64,000 bases of DNA. It comes from Vreelandella massiliensis. Its GTDB lineage: Bacteria; Pseudomonadota; Gammaproteobacteria; Pseudomonadales; Halomonadaceae. Location: the NCBI RefSeq assembly GCF_900155385.1, contig NZ_LT699745.1:197578-261577 (forward strand), written 5' to 3'. The notes under the pieces were generated by a model. It was not told where the DNA came from. It saw nothing but the letters and a program-made list of their open reading frames with translations, and made no database searches. Positions 50,007-62,591 of this stretch are shown in pieces (positions within the stretch are counted from its first letter, which is position 1; each line of letters opens with the position of its first letter). The translations under genes and the position numbers were made by a program.

Positions 50007-51077
50007 ATGCTATTCCTCAGCAAACCGCTATCTACCAAACAGCTCCCCACCCGCAAAAAACGTTTATGGGGTAAAAACCTTGGTCGCAGCGTCTTCGCGC
50101 TGGCGATTGCCGCTAGCGCCTCCACGACCGCCGTGGCACAGGAAGCGCCGCGCGAGCTATTGAACTCGTCTTACGATATCGCCCGCGAGCTTTTCGCGGC
50201 GATCAACCCAGAGTTTGAAGCCTGGTGGCAAGAAGAGCATGGCGAAGCGGTTGAGGTAAGCCAGTCCCATGGCGGTTCATCCGCCCAGGCGCGCGCCATT
50301 TTGCAGGGTTTGCGCGCGGACGTGGTGACGTTTAACCAAGTGACCGACGTGCAAGTGCTCGCCGATGCCGGCCTAGTCGCGAAAGATTGGCAAGACGCCT
50401 TCGATAACAATGCCTCGCCTTACTACTCCACCACCGCTTTTTTGGTGCGCGACGGCAACCCCAAAGAGATCGACAGCTGGGAAGACCTCGCCCGTGACGA
50501 TGTCGAGATCGTTTTCCCCAACCCCAAAACCTCGGGTAACGGGCGCTATACCTACCTTGCCGCCTGGGGTTTTGCCGAGCAGCAGTTCGACGGGGACGAG
50601 GAGCAGATTCATGACTTTATGCGCACCTTCCTGAGCAATGTCGTGGTCTTCGATACCGGCGGCCGTGGCGCCACCACCAGCTTCATCGAGCGCGGCATGG
50701 GCGATGTCTTGATCAGCTTCGAATCCGAGGTCAACAACATTCGTGGCGAGTACGGCAGCGACGACTACGAAGTCGTGGTGCCGCCGGTGAGCATCCTAGC
50801 CGAATTCCCGGTGGCCGTGGTCGAGGAAAACGCCGAGCGCAACGGCAACGAGAAGCTGGCGCGTAGCTACCTGGAATACCTCTACACCGAAGAGATGCAG
50901 CGTCTGCTCGCCGGCTTTAACTACCGTGTGCACGACGAGGACGTGGTGGCCGAGTTTGCCGATCAATTCCCCGAGACCAAGCTTTTAGAAGTCGAAAATG
51001 TCTTTGGCAGCTGGGATAACGCCATGGAAACGCACTTCGGCAGCGGCGGCCTTCTCGACCAGCTCCAGCGCCGTTGA
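50007..51077 (+). CDS. Sulfate/thiosulfate ABC transporter substrate-binding protein
   Basis: A 356-residue periplasmic protein with a long, basic signal peptide (cleavage near TAVAQ, about residue 46). Sulfate-binding signatures: LLNSSYDIARELF, SQSHGGSSAQARAI, VTFNQVTDVQVLAD, and FPNPKTSGNGRYTYLAAWG. Sbp and CysP are close paralogs and cannot be told apart here. AAAGGAG precedes the ATG. It is the first gene of a four-gene transporter operon. Confidence 0.93.
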   Translation: MLFLSKPLSTKQLPTRKKRLWGKNLGRSVFALAIAASASTTAVAQEAPRELLNSSYDIARELFAAINPEFEAWWQEEHGEAVEVSQSHGGSSAQARAILQGLRADVVTFNQVTDVQVLADAGLVAKDWQDAFDNNASPYYSTTAFLVRDGNPKEIDSWEDLARDDVEIVFPNPKTSGNGRYTYLAAWGFAEQQFDGDEEQIHDFMRTFLSNVVVFDTGGRGATTSFIERGMGDVLISFESEVNNIRGEYGSDDYEVVVPPVSILAEFPVAVVEENAERNGNEKLARSYLEYLYTEEMQRLLAGFNYRVHDEDVVAEFADQFPETKLLEVENVFGSWDNAMETHFGSGGLLDQLQRR

Positions 51078-51085
51078 GGTCACCC

Positions 51086-51943
51086 ATGAGCGCCACCCTT
51101 AGCCTTCGAATTAACCGCTCGAAACGGGTACTGCCGGGCTTCGGCCTCTCCATGGGCATCAGCGTGCTGTTTATTTCGCTGGTTTTGCTGCTGCCCATGA
51201 CGGGCCTGTTTGGCCAGTTGGCCGAGCTAAGCCTCGCGGAATACTGGGCGATTGTGACCGAAGGCCGCGTCGTAGCGAGCTACATGGTCACTATCGGGGC
51301 AGCGGCGGTCGCCGCGATAGTGAACGCAATCTTCGGCCTGCTGCTGGCCTGGGTCCTGGTGCGTTACGACTTCCCGGGTAAGCGCCTTTTAGATGCGTTA
51401 ATGGACTTGCCCTTTGCGCTGCCCACGGCGGTTGCCGGTATCACGCTCGCCACGCTCTACGCCAGTAATGGCTGGATGGGGCGTCTGCTGGAGCCACTCG
51501 GATTTCAGGTGGCTTACACCTGGGTTGGCATTGCGCTGGCCATGGCGTTCACCAGTATTCCTTTTGTGGTGCGCACGGTGCAGCCCGTGTTGGAGGATAT
51601 GCCCACCGAGGTGGACGAAGCCGCGATGTCGCTGGGCGCACGCGATGGCGCCGCGTTCCGTCGCGTGATTCTTCCCCACCTGTGGCCCGCCATTGTCACC
51701 GGCACCGGGCTTGCGTTCGTGCGCTCGCTGGGCGAGTTCGGCGCGATCATTTTCATCGCCGGCAATACACCCTACGAGACCGAAATCACCGCCCTGATGA
51801 TCTTCGTCAAACTCCAGGAGTATGACTACGCAGGCGCCTCGGCGATCGCGTCGGTCGTGCTCTTTGTATCGCTTGCGCTTCTGCTTGCTATTAACGTTTG
51901 GCAAGGCCGCTTTATTCGTCGCCTACACGGAGGAAAGGGTTAA
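51086..51943 (+). CDS. cysT: Sulfate ABC transporter permease CysT
   Basis: A 285-residue inner-membrane permease with about six helices. The binding-protein-dependent transport EAA-type loop reads EVDEAAMSLGARDGAAFRRVILP. MDLPFALPTAVAGITLATLY is typical of CysT/CysU. The ATG at 51086 has GAGGT six bases upstream. Its stop overlaps the cysW start by one base. Confidence 0.94.
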   Translation: MSATLSLRINRSKRVLPGFGLSMGISVLFISLVLLLPMTGLFGQLAELSLAEYWAIVTEGRVVASYMVTIGAAAVAAIVNAIFGLLLAWVLVRYDFPGKRLLDALMDLPFALPTAVAGITLATLYASNGWMGRLLEPLGFQVAYTWVGIALAMAFTSIPFVVRTVQPVLEDMPTEVDEAAMSLGARDGAAFRRVILPHLWPAIVTGTGLAFVRSLGEFGAIIFIAGNTPYETEITALMIFVKLQEYDYAGASAIASVVLFVSLALLLAINVWQGRFIRRLHGGKG

Positions 51944-52770
51944 TGCGTCGCATCGGTGATGCCCCAGCGGTGCGCCGCGCGCTGATTGGCGCGGCGGTAC
52001 TGCTATCGGCGCTGTTTCTGCTACTGCCGCTGGTAGCGATTTTCGCCCAGGCGTTTTCCCAGGGCGTCAGTGTATTCTGGGCCAACGTCAGCGACCCTTA
52101 TACGCTGCACGCCATTGGCCTGACACTCGCCGTGGCGCTGATGACCATTCCGATCTGCCTGGTGTTTGGCGTCGCGCTGGCGTGGCTGGTGACACGCTTT
52201 AGCTTCCCCGGCCGGCGCGTTTTGCAAACGCTGATCGATATCCCCTTTGCCGTCTCGCCGGTGGTGGCGGGTCTTATTTACCTCTTGCTCTACGGGCGCA
52301 ACGGCTGGATGGGCACCTGGCTGGATAGCTACGATATTCAGCTCATGTTCGCCTGGCCCGGCATCTTGATGGTGACGGTGTTTGTCACCTGCCCGTTTGT
52401 TGCCCGCGAACTGATTCCCTTGATGCAGGCGCAAGGGTCACGCGAAGAGGAAGCAGCGGTCACCCTCGGCGCCCGTGGCTGGACCACCTTTCGGCGCGTC
52501 ACGCTGCCTAACATTCGCTGGGCGCTGCTGTACGGCGTGATTCTGACCAATGCCCGGGCCGTGGGTGAATTTGGTGCGGTATCGGTGGTTTCCGGCGCGA
52601 TTCGCGGCCAAACCAACACCTTGCCGCTGCACTTAGAGCAGCTTTACCAGGATTACAACACCGTTGGCGCCTTCACCAGCGCCGCCCTATTGGCCCTCAT
52701 TGCCCTACTGACACTGGCCGCCAAAGCTGGCCTTGAGTGGCGCGCATCGCGCCGGGAGGCACTTGCATGA
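51943..52770 (+). CDS. cysW: Sulfate ABC transporter permease CysW
   Basis: A 275-residue second permease with about six helices. The EAA loop reads [23 protein letters not shown], preceded by [25 protein letters not shown] lies upstream of the ATG. Its stop overlaps the cysA start (ATGA). Confidence 0.94.
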
Positions 52771-53861
52771 GCATTCGCTTACACAATATTGGCAAACACT
52801 TCGGCGCCACCCGAGCGCTGGAACCGATCAACCTGGATATCCACGAAGGCGAACTGGTTGGCCTTTTGGGCCCTTCAGGCTCGGGCAAAACCACCCTGCT
52901 GCGGATTATCGCCGGGCTGGAAGATGCCGACCGCGCGCGCGAGTCCAGCAAGATTCTGTTTGGCGAGCGCGATGTGACCCATGTCCACGTGCGCGACCGC
53001 CGTATCGGGTTCGTATTTCAGCACTATGCCCTGTTTCGTCACATGACGGTATTCGATAACGTCGCCTTTGGCCTCACGGTGATGCCACGCAAGCAGCGCC
53101 CTAGCAGCGGAGAAATCCGTTCGCGGGTATTCCGTCTGCTGGAAATGGTTAAACTGGAGCACCTAGCGAACCGCTATCCGGCCCAGCTTTCCGGCGGTCA
53201 ACAGCAGCGGGTGTCGCTTGCGCGCGCATTGGCAGTAAAGCCCGATGTGTTACTGCTGGACGAACCGTTTGGGGCGTTGGATGCCAAGGTGCGTCAGGAG
53301 CTGCGCCGCTGGTTGCGTCACTTGCACGATGAGCTTAACTTCACCAGCGTGTTTGTCACCCACGACCAGGAAGAAGCGCTTGAGCTCTCCGACCGGGTGG
53401 TGGTGATGAGCAACGGCCGCATCGAGCAGGTCGATTCGCCGGAAGCGCTCTACCGCGCACCGAAAAATCGCTTTGTGTTTGAATTTCTGGGTGATGTAAA
53501 CCACCTGGAAGGCCGCGTGCGCGATGGTGTCCTCACCTGCGGCGACGCGCGTTTGAACGTTGACCTGCCCGATGGCCACGAGGAGCTGTTGCTGCGCCCA
53601 CACGAGGTGCGCCTGGCAGAGTCGCCTTCCGCCGAGAGCCACCTACCGGTCACCATTACCGCCATTTCACCGGTGGGTGCCGAAGTACGGGTGGAACTCG
53701 AAGCGGACTGGCTGGCAAAGCCGTGGCTTGCCACCGTGCGCCACGCCGATTTCGAGCGCTTATCCCTACGCCGCGGGCTACGTCTCTACGCTCACCCACG
53801 CCAGTGGCACCGCTTCGAGGATGAGACCTCCGCCCATGAAGCCGCTGCACGCGCAGCGTGA
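52767..53861 (+). CDS. cysA: Sulfate/thiosulfate import ATPase CysA
   Basis: A 364-residue ATPase energising sulfate uptake. Walker [20 protein letters not shown] signature [19 protein letters not shown], Walker [12 protein letters not shown] and the H-loop [15 protein letters not shown] are intact. A C-terminal regulatory domain (about residues 240-350) contains [20 protein letters not shown] precedes the ATG. Confidence 0.96.
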
Positions 53862-56261: not shown

Positions 56262-56457
56262 CTTGGCCCAGTCCTCTATTGACCATGATCAGGCCTGCTA
56301 GCCTACCATAGCTCGGCTTGTGGCGCCCAAAAGCGTTACGTGCGAACCTGGGGCATTACGCCTTATGACGGTGCAAAGCATCCGCGACTTGTTAAAACAT
56401 CAAGAAGAACGAGACTTCTATGTATAATTCCCCCACTGGCTGGGATAAGGAGTCACC

Positions 56458-58512
56458 GTGACGTCGGAAAACGATACGTCTCCCCAGAGGGACGATAAAC
56501 GTAATTTGCTAGTCGATAAGCTGGACGATGCGATTCACCAGCTCGCGCAAGAGCCCGCATTTTCCAAAGCAGCAAAATTGCCCCAAATGATGGAGTCTGC
56601 CCGGCAGGTCCTGCTTGAGCCAGGCGGGTGTGAGGCCATAGAAGCGCGCGCCGCTGAGCTGGAAGAAGCCGGCGTGTTTAGTGGTTCCGACTGGGAAACG
56701 CCGCAGTACCTTGTGCCATCCCTCACCACGTATGCGCTGAAAAGTCCCGACGCCAACATGGTAGTGATCGAAGCATTGAGCGAGCTACGCCTTCTGGCCG
56801 TGGCCAAAGGCAATTACGCCCACGACAGCGTTTCTGCCGAGCACGCTCACCACTACCTGACCCAGGTCATGGCGATCAACCTCTGGCTGCTGTTTTCCGC
56901 CCCCACAGAAGCCGAGCGTGAAACCCAGGGTAAGCTCGCCAATATCTCACGCCAACTGTTCCAGCATTTGGCCGAGCGTATCGGTTACGAACACATTGTC
57001 GATCAGCTTATTGATGAAATCTGGCGCATCCTGAAACAGCGCCCCATTCAGGTGGATGCCATCAAGTTGATGATCACCCAGATCGCCTTGTGTCAGACCA
57101 ACCCGGAGATCGACCTTGGCGCCAGCGGCCAAGGGGCGGCGCGCCTGGTGAGCTCGCTCTACGGCCCCACACAAGCGTGCCAGGAGGACCCTGGGGTCGG
57201 CATTTATCGCGACCGCCTCGAGCGTATGGATAATGCGGCGCTGCAAGCCGAAGCGACCGGTTTTGCCCGCGCCATGCACGACACCGGCTTGGTCTCGCCC
57301 TACCACCCGGTGCTACTGCGCCACTTGCTGGAATCGGGCGATCATCTTGTCTCCGAGGCGCTGGGCCTCTCCTCCACCGGGCGCGACTGCTTGCTTTGCT
57401 ACCGCGAACTGGTGCATGCGCTGATTCGCGGTGGCGTTTATCCTTCCACCCCGCAAGCGGTATACGGCCTTGCCTTGATGCTAGAGCGAGGCATTCTCTA
57501 CCAGCCGCCCGTGGCACCGGCCATGTGGCGCCAGCTAGGGTTAAAGCTCTCCGAATGGTCACAAGCGCGGCTCAATATTGCCTTCGGCGAAACCGCCTCC
57601 CCACGCGCGCGACTCCTCGAAGGCGTGATGTGCATGCTCGGCCAGCCTTTGGGCGTGGGCCAAGGGAATAACCCCACCTGCCAATCCGCCCGCGCGCTTT
57701 CGATGTGGGCCTACAACGACCCCGACTATCTGTTGCAAATGGTCGCTTGGGCAGCACGGGACGACGAGATCATCATGCACTTTGAGGGCCAGCCTATCTC
57801 TTCGATGGCTAGCCTAACGGGCGTCGCCACTGAGCTGCCGATAGACCTTGACCCGGTGTCGCTGATTGTGGTGCCGCACCTCGATCGCATCTATGCCGAA
57901 ATGGGGCGTCGCTGCATCTTCCGCGATGGCGATCCACACCGCTGGGTGAACCCCGAGTTTCACGGCTGGTGGTCGGGCCGGGGCTTTCGTATCAACGTCG
58001 ACGTGGGTACCGGCCAGCTCACCGGCGTAGACGAATTTTTACGCCATTTCTACGCGAGCTACCACCCTTACTACAATGGCAATCAACCGCTCATACACCC
58101 GCAGCCTGCGGGCATTGCGGTCACCGACAGCGCCGCGCGCTTTATCGGCTGGCACGCCATTACCATTTTACGCGCCTCGCTCGACCCTGAAGGCCAGATG
58201 CGTATCTACTTCTACAACCCCAATAACGACAGTGGCCAAGACTGGGGTGACGATGTTGTGGTGAGCACAGCCGGTCATGGTGAACGCTTCGGCGAGGCCT
58301 CGCTACTTTTTGAGCAGTTTGCCTCACGGCTCTATATTTACCACTTCGACCCACTGGAGAGCGGTGAGTTAGCCACCATTAGCGAGGACGAGCTTGAACG
58401 CGTGAAAGGGTATTTGTACCGCAGCTGGGGCAGCGATCGCATCCCCCCCGCCGAGCGACAAGCCGACGAAGGCCCCGTTTCGCCTCCCCCTTCGGACGGA
58501 TCCACAGAATAA
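56458..58512 (+). CDS. Unknown 684-residue protein with a papain-like Cys/His/Asn arrangement
   Basis: A large soluble protein with no signal peptide or membrane helix. The N-terminal 400 residues are predicted mainly helical. The last 280 residues contain NNPTCQSARALSMWAY with Cys408, RFIGWHAITIL with His566 and IYFYNPNNDSGQDWG with Asn587. A Cys in an amphipathic helix, a His in a strand and an Asn about 20 residues later is the layout of papain-like peptidases and transglutaminases, but I do not recognise the family. GTG start with GGAG shortly upstream; a TATAAT lies at 56423-56428. The stop is three bases from tlyA, so the two are probably co-transcribed. Confidence 0.75.
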   Translation: MTSENDTSPQRDDKRNLLVDKLDDAIHQLAQEPAFSKAAKLPQMMESARQVLLEPGGCEAIEARAAELEEAGVFSGSDWETPQYLVPSLTTYALKSPDANMVVIEALSELRLLAVAKGNYAHDSVSAEHAHHYLTQVMAINLWLLFSAPTEAERETQGKLANISRQLFQHLAERIGYEHIVDQLIDEIWRILKQRPIQVDAIKLMITQIALCQTNPEIDLGASGQGAARLVSSLYGPTQACQEDPGVGIYRDRLERMDNAALQAEATGFARAMHDTGLVSPYHPVLLRHLLESGDHLVSEALGLSSTGRDCLLCYRELVHALIRGGVYPSTPQAVYGLALMLERGILYQPPVAPAMWRQLGLKLSEWSQARLNIAFGETASPRARLLEGVMCMLGQPLGVGQGNNPTCQSARALSMWAYNDPDYLLQMVAWAARDDEIIMHFEGQPISSMASLTGVATELPIDLDPVSLIVVPHLDRIYAEMGRRCIFRDGDPHRWVNPEFHGWWSGRGFRINVDVGTGQLTGVDEFLRHFYASYHPYYNGNQPLIHPQPAGIAVTDSAARFIGWHAITILRASLDPEGQMRIYFYNPNNDSGQDWGDDVVVSTAGHGERFGEASLLFEQFASRLYIYHFDPLESGELATISEDELERVKGYLYRSWGSDRIPPAERQADEGPVSPPPSDGSTE

Positions 58513-58515
58513 GCC

Positions 58516-59271
58516 ATGCCACGCCTCGACCAACTGCTGGTAAGCCAAGGGCTGGCCACGTCTCGCACACGCGCCCAGCGGCTCATCCGCCATGGACGCG
58601 TCTCGCGTCTGGATACCCACGCCATACTGACCAAAGCTAGCGAAAAACTGCCGGATGACACGCCACTACAGGTGGAAGACGACCCGGAGGAGCGCTACGT
58701 CTCACGGGCGGGGCTCAAGCTTGAAGCCGTACTCAGTGCGCTGAATAAGCGTTTCGATGGTCAGGTGGTGCTCGATGTCGGGCAGTCCACCGGCGGCTTT
58801 AGTGACTGCGCCCTGCGCGTTGGCGCGCGACACGTGATCGGTATCGAAGTCGGCCATGGGCAGCTGGCGCCTTCACTGCGCGACGATCCTCGCGTCACCT
58901 GTTTGGAGGGCATCAACGCCCGCGCCATGCGCGACCATCCAGCACTTGCGGACACGCTAAAAACGCATCCCCTCAACATAGCGGTGATGGATGTCTCTTT
59001 TATTTCGCAAACCTTAATCCTGCCGGAAATCGCCGCGCTGCTGTCGGCGGGTGGCGAGCTGATTTCCCTGGTGAAGCCGCAGTTCGAGCTTGACCCTGCG
59101 GCGCTGGATAAGCGTGGCGTGGTGCGCGACCCTCGCCGCTACCGCGAGGTGGAAGAGAAACTTCGCGCGGCCTGTGCTGCGTGCGGTTTTGCCATCGCCC
59201 ACTGGCAGGAGAGCCCGATCACCGGCGGCGATGGTAATCGGGAATTTTTGCTCCATGCCATTAAAGACTAG
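58516..59271 (+). CDS. tlyA: TlyA-family rRNA 2'-O-methyltransferase
   Basis: A 251-residue protein. An N-terminal S4 RNA-binding domain (MPRLDQLLVSQGLATSRTRAQ, about 1-60) is followed by an FtsJ-type methyltransferase (VLDVGQSTGGFSDCALRVGA). The KPQFELDP motif and NREFLLHAIKD lie near the end. The family methylates rRNA in several bacteria; older annotations say haemolysin. The 3' end overlaps the convergent mscK by four bases. Confidence 0.9.
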   Translation: MPRLDQLLVSQGLATSRTRAQRLIRHGRVSRLDTHAILTKASEKLPDDTPLQVEDDPEERYVSRAGLKLEAVLSALNKRFDGQVVLDVGQSTGGFSDCALRVGARHVIGIEVGHGQLAPSLRDDPRVTCLEGINARAMRDHPALADTLKTHPLNIAVMDVSFISQTLILPEIAALLSAGGELISLVKPQFELDPAALDKRGVVRDPRRYREVEEKLRAACAACGFAIAHWQESPITGGDGNREFLLHAIKD

Positions 59272-62200
59272 CCACTTGGCTCACCACCAAGCGTAACGGA
59301 CTGCACGCGCACAGGGGCTGTTTCGTCGCCGTGCAGCCATACGTCCATTTGTTCAAAAGCGACCCGTATACCCGCCTCACGAAACAACTCGTCGACACGG
59401 CAGTTCACTTCATCGGCGGCGTATAGGCGATCAAGCAGGTCATTAACAAAAATGCGCAGCTCGAAGTTGAGGCTATGAGGCCCGTAGCTGAGACAGAAGA
59501 CTTGCGGCTCCGGGTCGCTTAAAACACGGGAGTTTTCTGCAGCCGCCTGGTGCAGCAACTCATGGACTTTAGGTAAATCCGAGCCGTGAGAGACGCCGTA
59601 TGTGAGCACTACTCGGGTCACGTTGTCCGATAGCGACCAGTTGATCAACTGGTCGGTGACGAAGGTTTTATTGGGGATAATGATTTCCTTACGGTCGAAA
59701 TCGGTCACCGTGGTGGCACGAATGCGAATCCGGCTCACCGTGCCATGCAGGTTCCCCAATGTAATCGTGTCCCCGATGCGAATTGGGCGTTCGAACAGAA
59801 TAATCAAACCGGAAATGAAATTGGCGAAAATCTCTTGCAGCCCAAAGCCTAAGCCAACGCTAAGCGCGGCCACCAGCCACTGCAGCTTGTTCCACGAAAC
59901 GCCAAGCGTGGCGAGCGCCATCACCACACCGGTACCCACAATCGTGTAAGAGAGTAGCGAGCTGATGGCATAGGCACTGCCCTGCTTTAGCGCCAGACGC
60001 GAGAGCACCATGACTTCTAAAAGCCCCGGCAGGTTACGCGCCATGATAAAGGTAATCCCGACAATCAATAGCGCCGTAAACAGATCCGACATGGAGAGTA
60101 CATTTTCCACCAGCTCCCCTTCCGCCGCCTCTAGTAGGGTAACCTGATCCAGATATCTCAACACCCCCAACAAATCAGCCCAAACGACGTACAAAAGTGC
60201 GGAGAATGCCAGCAGCAGGATTAGCCGCGAAAGACGCAGCGATTGTGTGTTGATCTGCTCCATATCCAGCGGCGGCTCCTCCACGACTTCTAGCCCGCCC
60301 TCGGCCCCCTCTTGAACTTGCGCACTGCGTCGGGCTAAAGCACGACGGTAAGCCAGACGCCGAGCAGCTACGGCCAAACTGCGCACTGCCGTGGCTTCTA
60401 CGACCACCCACAAACCCAAAATGTAGAGCGACACCACATAGCGCTCAATCAGCTTAAGCGCCGTATATTCATAGCCCCACGCGACAATACCCAATAGCAC
60501 AAGCGGGATTACCGCCATCGACATCCCCAGCACAAGGCGCAACAGATTCACCCCGAAAAAAGGCACATGGGCCAACACCAGCTTTGCCAACAACAAGCTC
60601 ATGGCCAAAAGCCCCAGCATAAAGAGCGCAAACGCCGTTGGACGCATCGCTAACGGGGTTTGTATGGCCTCGGTCATCGCCGCGATCGAGACCACCGGAA
60701 TCAGGGCGATCCCCAGCCCAGTGAGTAAACGCCTTACACGGGCGTTATAAGCCGCGGGCCAATTGAAATGGCGCTCAGCTACGCCATCTGTCATCAATAA
60801 ACGCCGCCCCAACGCAATCACTCCCCACAGCAGCGCGAGCTGTATCAATGCCGGGGCCTGCAAACCAAGACCCAATCCAGCCAGCAAACACCCTCCCGGC
60901 AGCGCCAAGAGCACGTTTAAGCACACGGCTTTGGGCGTATGTAGTTGGGTATCGCTTTTCAGCCGACCAATTTGCGCATGCAGCACCGCCAAGCGTTTTT
61001 TAATCCGCCGCCGCAGGGCCACCAGTACAGCCGCTAACAGCAGCAGTGGCCCACCGCTTACCCCCTTCCAAGCCTCACCCTTCCAAGCCTCAATGGAAAA
61101 GCGCGACGCCACGACTGAACGCCACTCCCCTTCGGACCATTCACTCTGCAGATAGTCGGGTAAGCTACGTAACCAATTCATATCAAGCGGTCGGCTATTG
61201 GCTACCCAGAACAGCTGCTCATCAATGGTTTCGCGCAGCTCGCGCGTGGTGTAAACAAGTTGCTGATGGTTGAGTTGAAGCTCAATGGCCGCACTCAACA
61301 GCGTGCCATAGGCCTGCTCAAGTGGCTCAACCAGTTCCCGCCGCGACTGATAGAGGCGTGTCAGGGAGTCCACCAAACCTGGCGTGACCTCAACGCCAGC
61401 CTCTTGCAGGCGTTGCGAGGCAAGCCGCTCGCCTTGGCGCAACTGATCCCGCTGGCGAATCAGGTCGAACTGCTTTAAGCGCAAATCAGCAATCTCATCT
61501 TGCAGTTCGCGCCGCGTGGTAACGTCCGGCAGTGCCTGGCGCTGCTCGCGAAGAATCCTCGACAACAGCTGACTGCCCCGAATCGCGTCGATTTGCTCGT
61601 TTAGCGTGCGTTGAAGCTGGCGGATATTATCGAGTTGCCGCTGGGTCTCCATATTTTCCCGCACTATGCTGCTGGCTCGATCAGTTGCCTGTAATAGCTC
61701 TAAGCTCAGCGTTTGGTTGACCTGCTGCGCACGGGCAACCACCGGATGCCCCCCCGCAATCAGTGGGTCATCTCTTGCGGCATCGGCAATCGCTTGCTCG
61801 GACAAAAGTCGCCGTTTACGCTCGATCTCCCCTTGCAGCCGCTCAAGGTATATTTCTTGGTGGGCAATCTGCAGGGCAATGAGCTCCTGCCGCTCTTGAG
61901 CTATCTCGCGAAGAAGACTGTTCGAACTTAATTCGCGCTGATGAAAGCTGATTTCGCGCTCTGCCACCGCGCGTTCTAACCGAATCTGGATCAGCTCTGG
62001 ATCTTGCGACTCGGAAAGCTGGCGATCAGCCAAGCGGGATGCGTGAGCGTCATGCTCCCGGCGCAAACGCTCCACGCGCTGTAGCGCAGAAACGATCGCT
62101 TGCTGTGCCCGCTCCGGTAATGCTTGCGCGGCCAATAATTGTGCATTTATTTCCGCCAGTTGGTTTTGTTGCTGCTGCAGCGCGGTGACCGCTTGGGCCT

Positions 62201-62591
62201 GTTCCGCTTCAAGCACATCAAGCGGCTTTTCACTTAACTGCGCCATCGAGGGTTGCCCCGGGTCTTGCGCCATCTGTTTGATCGCACTTTCCAAGCGTCG
62301 CAGCTCACCGGGAGCACTCGCGATACGCTGCTCCAACGTTTCAAGGCGCGCTTTGAAGGTGGCTAAACGATCATAGGCTTGCAGCGATGCTTCAAGCGCG
62401 GCCTTATGGCGTGTTTGCTCAGCGCTTAGCTCGCTATCGCTTTGCGTTAACGGCTCTAAACGCTCGCGCAGCACCTCCTTGGAAGGCACGCCGTCCAAAG
62501 TGACCGCCCACGTCGCGTTGGACAAAAAGCTCAGACTTAGATAAAGCACACACAAAAAAACAGGACGCCGCCAGCCAAAAACTTTGCCCAC
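59268..62591 (-). CDS. mscK: MscK-type mechanosensitive channel
   Basis: An 1107-residue channel. A signal peptide (about 1-29) is followed by a periplasmic coiled-coil domain of roughly 450 residues. A set of transmembrane helices leads into a C-terminal MscS domain with pore helix SVGLGFGLQEIFANFISGLII and the beta domain GDTITLGNLHGTVSRI. Such channels release solutes on hypo-osmotic shock, which suits a halophile. Full length compared with MscK/KefA (about 1100 residues). Confidence 0.95.
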   Translation of the reverse strand: MGKVFGWRRPVFLCVLYLSLSFLSNATWAVTLDGVPSKEVLRERLEPLTQSDSELSAEQTRHKAALEASLQAYDRLATFKARLETLEQRIASAPGELRRLESAIKQMAQDPGQPSMAQLSEKPLDVLEAEQAQAVTALQQQQNQLAEINAQLLAAQALPERAQQAIVSALQRVERLRREHDAHASRLADRQLSESQDPELIQIRLERAVAEREISFHQRELSSNSLLREIAQERQELIALQIAHQEIYLERLQGEIERKRRLLSEQAIADAARDDPLIAGGHPVVARAQQVNQTLSLELLQATDRASSIVRENMETQRQLDNIRQLQRTLNEQIDAIRGSQLLSRILREQRQALPDVTTRRELQDEIADLRLKQFDLIRQRDQLRQGERLASQRLQEAGVEVTPGLVDSLTRLYQSRRELVEPLEQAYGTLLSAAIELQLNHQQLVYTTRELRETIDEQLFWVANSRPLDMNWLRSLPDYLQSEWSEGEWRSVVASRFSIEAWKGEAWKGVSGGPLLLLAAVLVALRRRIKKRLAVLHAQIGRLKSDTQLHTPKAVCLNVLLALPGGCLLAGLGLGLQAPALIQLALLWGVIALGRRLLMTDGVAERHFNWPAAYNARVRRLLTGLGIALIPVVSIAAMTEAIQTPLAMRPTAFALFMLGLLAMSLLLAKLVLAHVPFFGVNLLRLVLGMSMAVIPLVLLGIVAWGYEYTALKLIERYVVSLYILGLWVVVEATAVRSLAVAARRLAYRRALARRSAQVQEGAEGGLEVVEEPPLDMEQINTQSLRLSRLILLLAFSALLYVVWADLLGVLRYLDQVTLLEAAEGELVENVLSMSDLFTALLIVGITFIMARNLPGLLEVMVLSRLALKQGSAYAISSLLSYTIVGTGVVMALATLGVSWNKLQWLVAALSVGLGFGLQEIFANFISGLIILFERPIRIGDTITLGNLHGTVSRIRIRATTVTDFDRKEIIIPNKTFVTDQLINWSLSDNVTRVVLTYGVSHGSDLPKVHELLHQAAAENSRVLSDPEPQVFCLSYGPHSLNFELRIFVNDLLDRLYAADEVNCRVDELFREAGIRVAFEQMDVWLHGDETAPVRVQSVTLGGEPSG

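Follow-up and report, generated by a model that had tools for sequence, protein, structure and literature searches.

What does the protein encoded at positions 56458-58512 (plus strand) of this DNA do, and does it work alone or with a partner? We analysed a stretch of 64,000 nucleotides from Vreelandella massiliensis (the window), in which an initial annotation had noticed a 684-residue protein with the triad layout of a papain-like enzyme. Provided that the fold is right, it had placed this protein in the cytoplasm and in an undescribed family, and it had described a long helical region ahead of its candidate catalytic cysteine. We call the gene and its product PLP. The reading frame of 684 residues holds: it is open throughout, begins with GTG, and has a ribosome-binding site, AAGGAG (56447-56452, plus strand), that can be read directly 5 bases ahead of the start. 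Homologues and the predicted structure described below further support the gene. In a simple hydropathy scan, the maximum over 19 residues was 1.19 and no signal-like or transmembrane stretch was detected, which fits a cytoplasmic location.

PLP could not be named from family libraries. It had no significant match in Pfam, NCBIfam, PHROGs, PADLOC or the PDB sequences, which fits the claim of an undescribed family. The window's PLP matched no Pfam family at an E of 1 or better; the rows of a 27-member PLP alignment reached 0.03 at best against Pfam, with hits scattered over families and no peptidase family at an E of 10, and the profile of the same 27 members gave a best E of 1.2 against the PDB. 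Neither the peptidase C1 model (PF00112) nor the Transglut_core model of Pfam was matched. The third catalytic residue of transglutaminases is an aspartate, and neither of the two candidate columns in PLP (Asn587 and Asn590, see below) has an aspartate in any row. A transglutaminase identity was rejected on these two points, the absent Pfam match and the third residue.

The C-terminal half of PLP is predicted to have a papain-like fold (clan CA), to which it would be remotely related. The full-length AlphaFold2 model (pLDDT 84, pTM 0.80) consists of about 390 residues of helices, so that the helical region described ahead of Cys408 is seen in the model, followed by a papain-like C-terminal half. 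By DSSP of the model, the N-terminal all-helical region, which resembled no known family in the comparisons made, spans about residues 8-395 (56479-57642, plus strand). The predicted catalytic domain spans about residues 396-664 (57643-58449, plus strand), as delimited by a model of residues 366-664, by its fold matches and by hhalign comparison with peptidase C1. This shorter region, modelled alone with 52 sequences, had a pLDDT of 89.8; in both models the pLDDT falls below 60 just ahead of Cys408. Foldseek ranked calpain cores best for residues 366-664 (E 1.4e-3, probability 0.98). In a structural comparison of the same model, calpains reached a Z of up to 8.9 (rmsd 4.5 over 208 residues), where rows less than 1 Z apart are to be read as tied. 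Calpains also came first for the full-length model (Z 8.5), above unrelated helical chains (Z of 6.6 or less). The initial annotation had named fold prediction and comparison as a check, and 49 of the 50 matches listed for residues 366-664 (Foldseek's own candidates) are papain-like by their titles or, for part of them, by what we take these proteins to be; the fiftieth, 8ssk, could not be placed from its title. The listed matches include calpains, a C39 transporter domain, staphopains, phytochelatin synthase, cathepsin B, bleomycin hydrolase and others. The helical half matched PUF-like and karyopherin chains with a Z below 7 over 83-85 residues, a score that is uninformative for helices.

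The predicted fold puts the proposed catalytic residues on or next to the structural elements expected of a papain-like enzyme. A helix of residues 408-420 begins at Cys408, His566 lies inside a strand of residues 562-575, and Asn587 stands just past a strand of residues 581-586. If the structural alignments of the full-length model are assumed to start without gaps, Cys408 falls on residue 24 of 1cv8, residue 34 of Der p 1, residue 25 of dionain and residue 29 of cathepsin B 1ito, all of which we take to be the catalytic cysteines. It falls one residue off the catalytic cysteine in cathepsin S (2g6d) and bleomycin hydrolase (7v5t) and, with the model of residues 366-664, in cathepsin B 1gmy.

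Profile comparison points to a similar correspondence. When a C-terminal PLP profile was compared by hhalign with an alignment of 11 peptidase C1 proteins, the score was 34.6 and the P value 4e-4, with an hhalign probability of 33% (only 26-33% overall). In the local alignment, His566-Ala567 falls on the His-Ala of C1, and Trp596-Gly597 on the second Trp-Gly of the C1 motif NSWGxxWG; the global alignment also places Gln402 and Cys408 on the Gln and Cys of C1. The C1 asparagine aligns with Asn590, not with Asn587. With match columns only, the score was 32.8, and none of 200 column shuffles scored above 23.9. In the first comparison, which kept gappy columns, a reversed query scored 13.6 and the helical half 14.0. 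Its shuffle control, however, gave 4 of 200 scores near 133 compared with the 34.6 observed, and we take these for an artefact of that control.

Thus four predicted catalytic residues can be assigned with their codons, all on the plus strand: Gln402 (57661-57663), six residues ahead of Cys408, as the oxyanion-hole residue; Cys408 (57679-57681) as the nucleophile; His566 (58153-58155) as the general base; and Asn587 (58216-58218) as the likeliest third member of the triad. The codons of Cys408, His566 and Asn587 lie where the initial annotation had put them. All four residues were invariant in 114 of 114 rows, down to 41% identity; the same holds for 149 of 149 C-terminal rows and for all 52 rows of a set kept below 90% identity, so that the conservation of the proposed triad in homologues is borne out. 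The set of 114 rows is the window plus 113 of 114 loci, leaving out L034, which had no matching open reading frame, and including L001, which is the window's own; the set of 149 excludes matches that contain a stop or fall short of 270 residues, and some genes are repeated in both sets. Asn590 (58225-58227, plus strand) is an alternative third residue, since hhalign aligns it with the Asn of the C1 NSWG motif, and it is an asparagine in 49 of the 52 rows below 90% identity and in 142 of the 149 C-terminal rows. We prefer Asn587, although the choice is not settled, because it is invariant in all 52 rows in which Asn590 varies three times and because it comes right after its strand. Across a 27-row alignment, the mean frequency of the top residue was 0.81 in the catalytic half and 0.70 in the helical half.

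Invariance also bears on whether the domain is catalytic at all. A survey of papain-like proteins (PMC10318531, 2023) reports 21 new families and describes inactive papain-like families, so a catalytically dead fold that serves as a binding protein has precedents. The constancy of Gln402, Cys408, His566 and Asn587 in all rows examined argues against this for PLP, and we regard it as very improbable.

PLP belongs to halophilic and marine bacteria, namely Vreelandella and some of its relatives. It was matched in 36 of 37 genomes of the same genus (G014 has only a 63-residue remnant, and G015 has the gene in two pieces). Of 369 genomes sampled from the class, 13 have it, spread over 9 of 271 genera; a profile search of 398 genomes sampled across the phylum found it in 11, among them one genome outside the class (G435). 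A scan of named genomes returned at least 586 stretches that encode a PLP relative. Among the best 80 loci, which were kept, 73 carry Halomonadaceae genus names; the other seven are from Marinobacter, Marinimicrobium, an Alcanivorax and a Haliea bin, and three Ectothiorhodospiraceae bins. We considered a phage or plasmid origin but dropped it, because no PLP relative was found in phage records, because the one stretch of viral contigs that fitted a pattern encoded no PLP relative, and because the single match among plasmid records was on a 1.8-Mb Halomonas replicon that is not annotated at the matching position.

The genomes also point to a partner. In 72 of the best 80 loci, PLP is directly preceded on the same strand by a full-length gene (about 407 codons), which we call AG; the gap is 28-69 bp in 63 of these 72. 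The eight other loci comprise five with only an AG remnant (L035, L046, L047, L048 and L053), one in which the contig ends within AG (L112), one in which part of an AG lies at the far end of the fetched region (L093) and one with none (L079). These counts were made by tblastn; a longest-ORF picker misses intact AG or PLP in some loci. Other gene orders occur, with AG after PLP (L136, L137), convergent (L138, L140) or divergent (L141, L149), and in 8 of 20 fetched regions PLP has no AG within the stretch. AG matches the Pfam family ATP-grasp_4 with an E of 4e-6 and 26.9 bits, compared with a cut-off of 27. At an E of 0.01, an AG profile matched only two PDB entries by hmmsearch (E 1e-3), both of them ATP-grasp L-amino-acid ligases: 4wd3, which we take to be RizA, and 3vot (BL00235). 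As judged from these sequence matches, AG would be an ATP-grasp ligase that probably makes peptide bonds.

AG and PLP occur in identical sets of genomes: 13 of 369 in the class draw, 11 of 398 in the phylum draw and 38 of 58 close genomes. The three draws share a few genomes, and AG was counted as present at an E below 1e-200. Weak AG matches (E 8e-20 or poorer) were found in a further 21 of the 369 and 5 of the 398 genomes, as expected of other ATP-grasp enzymes. The close genomes without the full pair include G023, which has neither gene, and G039, which has only a weak AG match. The chance of the co-occurrence in the class would be about 3e-24 if genomes were independent, a figure that is overstated because the genomes are related. 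Within the genomes searched, the AG-PLP partnership is strict. These results suggest that PLP and AG probably work as a pair on one substrate. In G014 (C78:31946-32328), remnants of AG and PLP lie side by side, and both genes have been lost.

The window itself has no AG beside PLP. Between PLP and the divergent gene upstream of it there are 196 bases, and within them tblastn located the last 16 codons of an AG gene (56377-56424) and their stop TAA, together at 56377-56427 on the plus strand. This scar reads SIRDLLKHQEERDFYV and then stops; 11 of its 16 residues are identical to the AG C-terminus (E 0.001 in 1.4 kb), and it stands in the place and on the strand of the intact AG of relatives (72 of 80). 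At the same place L035, L046, L048 and L053 have longer AG remnants, and L047 has a poor one. As read from this scar, the window has lost its adjacent AG copy. Its genome retains a single AG, about 123 kb away (L133:8217-9686, minus strand; G000:C2, about 379219-380685). This distant AG adjoins an aminotransferase gene with the NCBIfam name omega-aminotransferase AptA.

The retained AG belongs with a different PLP. By phylogeny, its closest grouping is with the AG of G055 and G578 that adjoins a different PLP clade (support 1.000), whereas the PLP of the window falls among those Vreelandella PLPs that are preceded by AG in the usual way (support 0.993). The pair in this genome is therefore mixed, since a PLP of clade A is accompanied only by an AG of clade B. 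This mixed pairing suggests that the two AG clades are interchangeable. The distribution of AG types in the 38 close genomes was compared by hand, with types set by identity to the AG of the window's genome. There, 25 genomes have an AG of the window's type (at least 88% identity) and 32 have the other type (about 74-82%). In each of the six genomes without the other type (G000, G001, G012, G013, G024 and G036), a scar or remnant adjoins PLP and the window's type is retained, and the 13 without the window's type keep the other. The pattern in which one AG is always kept is only suggestive, because the one-sided Fisher probability of the AG-type pattern alone is about 0.06.

Based on these results, we propose a model in which PLP is a catalytically competent cytoplasmic papain-like enzyme that trims or removes what a cytoplasmic AG adds. 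We hold this model tentatively; it is the reading we prefer, at somewhat less than even odds. AG would use ATP to activate a carboxylate and join it to an amine, thus extending a peptide or tagging a protein. PLP would bind the AG product through its helical N-terminal half, and Cys408 would attack the new amide or isopeptide bond, with His566 as the base, Asn587 or possibly Asn590 orienting it, and Gln402 contributing the oxyanion hole. The resulting thioester on Cys408 would be released to water, so that PLP trims or removes the addition made by AG. In this scheme we infer that PLP is active, that it acts on the AG product and that it hydrolyses rather than transfers. We favour trimming because PLP copies outnumber AG copies in some genomes (five full PLPs and two AGs in G055; two PLPs and one AG each in G227 and G335), because PLP is less conserved than AG (mean column identity of 68% for PLP and 86% for AG, in different sequence sets), and because a large substrate would fit the helical half. 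The five PLPs of G055 (L141-L145) share 52-74% identity and stand in different neighbourhoods.

A rival that we consider nearly as likely as trimming, because the nearest solved relatives of AG are L-amino-acid ligases, is that AG makes a short peptide and PLP is a transpeptidase. The product would be a peptide metabolite of the cytoplasm, perhaps one with a role in stress or redox balance, and we give this about one chance in three. L-amino-acid ligases make free dipeptides, which is as compatible with a small metabolite as with a tag. These ligases are the sole PDB matches of AG at an E of 0.01, and the phytochelatin synthase Alr0975 is among the listed structural matches of PLP (Z 6.6-6.7). 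Where AG is directly upstream, a precursor gene would not fit between it and PLP, and in the 34 loci compared (ORFs of at least 90 aa, of which the picker misses some) no third gene was repeatedly found next to AG-PLP. Two AGs occur with one PLP in 16 of the 38 close genomes, which counts against trimming and is consistent with a biosynthetic pair. However, calpain cores, the C39 domain and staphopains outrank phytochelatin synthase, and a small substrate would need neither a large helical half nor the extra PLPs of G055. If the product is instead a tag, AG may mark proteins with an amino acid or short peptide that PLP deconjugases remove, in a reversible cycle somewhat like that of the deubiquitinases. 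Where PLPs have diversified, each helical half would then be its own reader of particular targets, and the cycle would be an undescribed one in marine and halophilic Pseudomonadota. We consider this more elaborate form unlikely, although not negligibly so.

The order of the two reactions could also be reversed, with PLP as an upstream peptidase whose products feed AG in supply or salvage. The listed matches include bleomycin hydrolase and a dipeptidyl aminopeptidase (Pd_dinase), and such a route fits the co-occurrence equally well, but free amino acids or dipeptides should not need a dedicated, always-paired protease. We therefore think this improbable. More improbable again is that PLP is an independent cytoplasmic peptidase whose link to AG, or to the neighbouring tlyA gene, reflects chance or shared ancestry. 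The window's loss of its adjacent AG, the 8 of 20 fetched regions in which AG is missing from the stretch and the common adjacency of tlyA in Halomonadaceae are consistent with independence. Against it stand the identical genome sets of AG and PLP in three draws, their linkage in four gene orders, and the finding that where the adjacent AG is lost another AG copy is present. For a gene of the genus Vreelandella that has no name in the family libraries searched, a chemistry and a nucleophile can now be predicted and a partner named, and AG and PLP point to a pathway of peptide or protein modification in Halomonas and its relatives.

How does this pair compare with known systems? With the papain, calpain and staphopain group (C1, C2, C47 and C39), PLP shares the predicted fold, the Gln-Cys-His set and a cysteine at the start of a helix. 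It differs in having no significant Pfam match, in the register of its asparagine in the alignment with C1, in its paired AG, in a helical N-terminal half of about 390 residues, and in the absence of a signal-like stretch. AG resembles the L-amino-acid ligases 4wd3 and 3vot well over about 120 residues only, and differs in its fixed pairing with PLP. In Pseudomonas, RimK and RimB form a pair that modifies ribosomes. The logic of an ATP-grasp ligase and a protease is shared with that pair, which is a precedent for the trimming model, but RimB is reported to be retropepsin-like (PMC11957791), not papain-like. The Anbu/alpha-E operons combine a transglutaminase, an ATP-grasp protein and a helical protein in one unit (PMC5666114), but the helical half of PLP has no profile relation to alpha-E. 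Alpha-E (PF04168) was rejected as the source of this half, with an hhalign E of 0.45 over 29 columns and no Pfam match. Phytochelatin synthase, the transpeptidase precedent, matches PLP structurally, but it is not the best match, has no such helical half and has a different partner. We recognised no paper on the PLP/AG pair among the open-access full-text literature, and because of this we rate PLP, within that literature, as a papain-like family not described before and its pairing with AG as a new module of two genes.

The gene downstream of PLP is tlyA (58516-59271, plus strand), identified by a match to NCBIfam TIGR00478 above the cut-off. It begins three bases after PLP, as the initial annotation had seen in noting that PLP abuts tlyA. 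Among the best 80 loci, tlyA lies within 400 bp downstream of PLP in 42 and overlaps PLP by 7 bases in one more; it is farther off in 24 and outside the fetched stretch in 13, some of which are short. All seven loci named outside Halomonadaceae are among these 13. We considered tlyA as a functional partner and rejected it: it is within 400 bp in only 42 of 80 loci, and an incidental linkage within Halomonadaceae seems likelier. Thus the position of tlyA next to PLP, as judged from gene order, is probably incidental. An MscK gene (NCBIfam match above the cut-off; 59268-62591 of the window, minus strand) is also near PLP in Halomonadaceae, and in two Ectothiorhodospiraceae bins (L112 and L113) an ORF of about 275 aa from the MscK BLAST cluster follows PLP; this shared location may be chance. 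Upstream, the window carries a sulfate-type ABC transporter cluster at 50007-53861, in which the ATP-binding gene matches TIGR00968 above the cut-off and the other genes are presumably the remaining members of the transporter.
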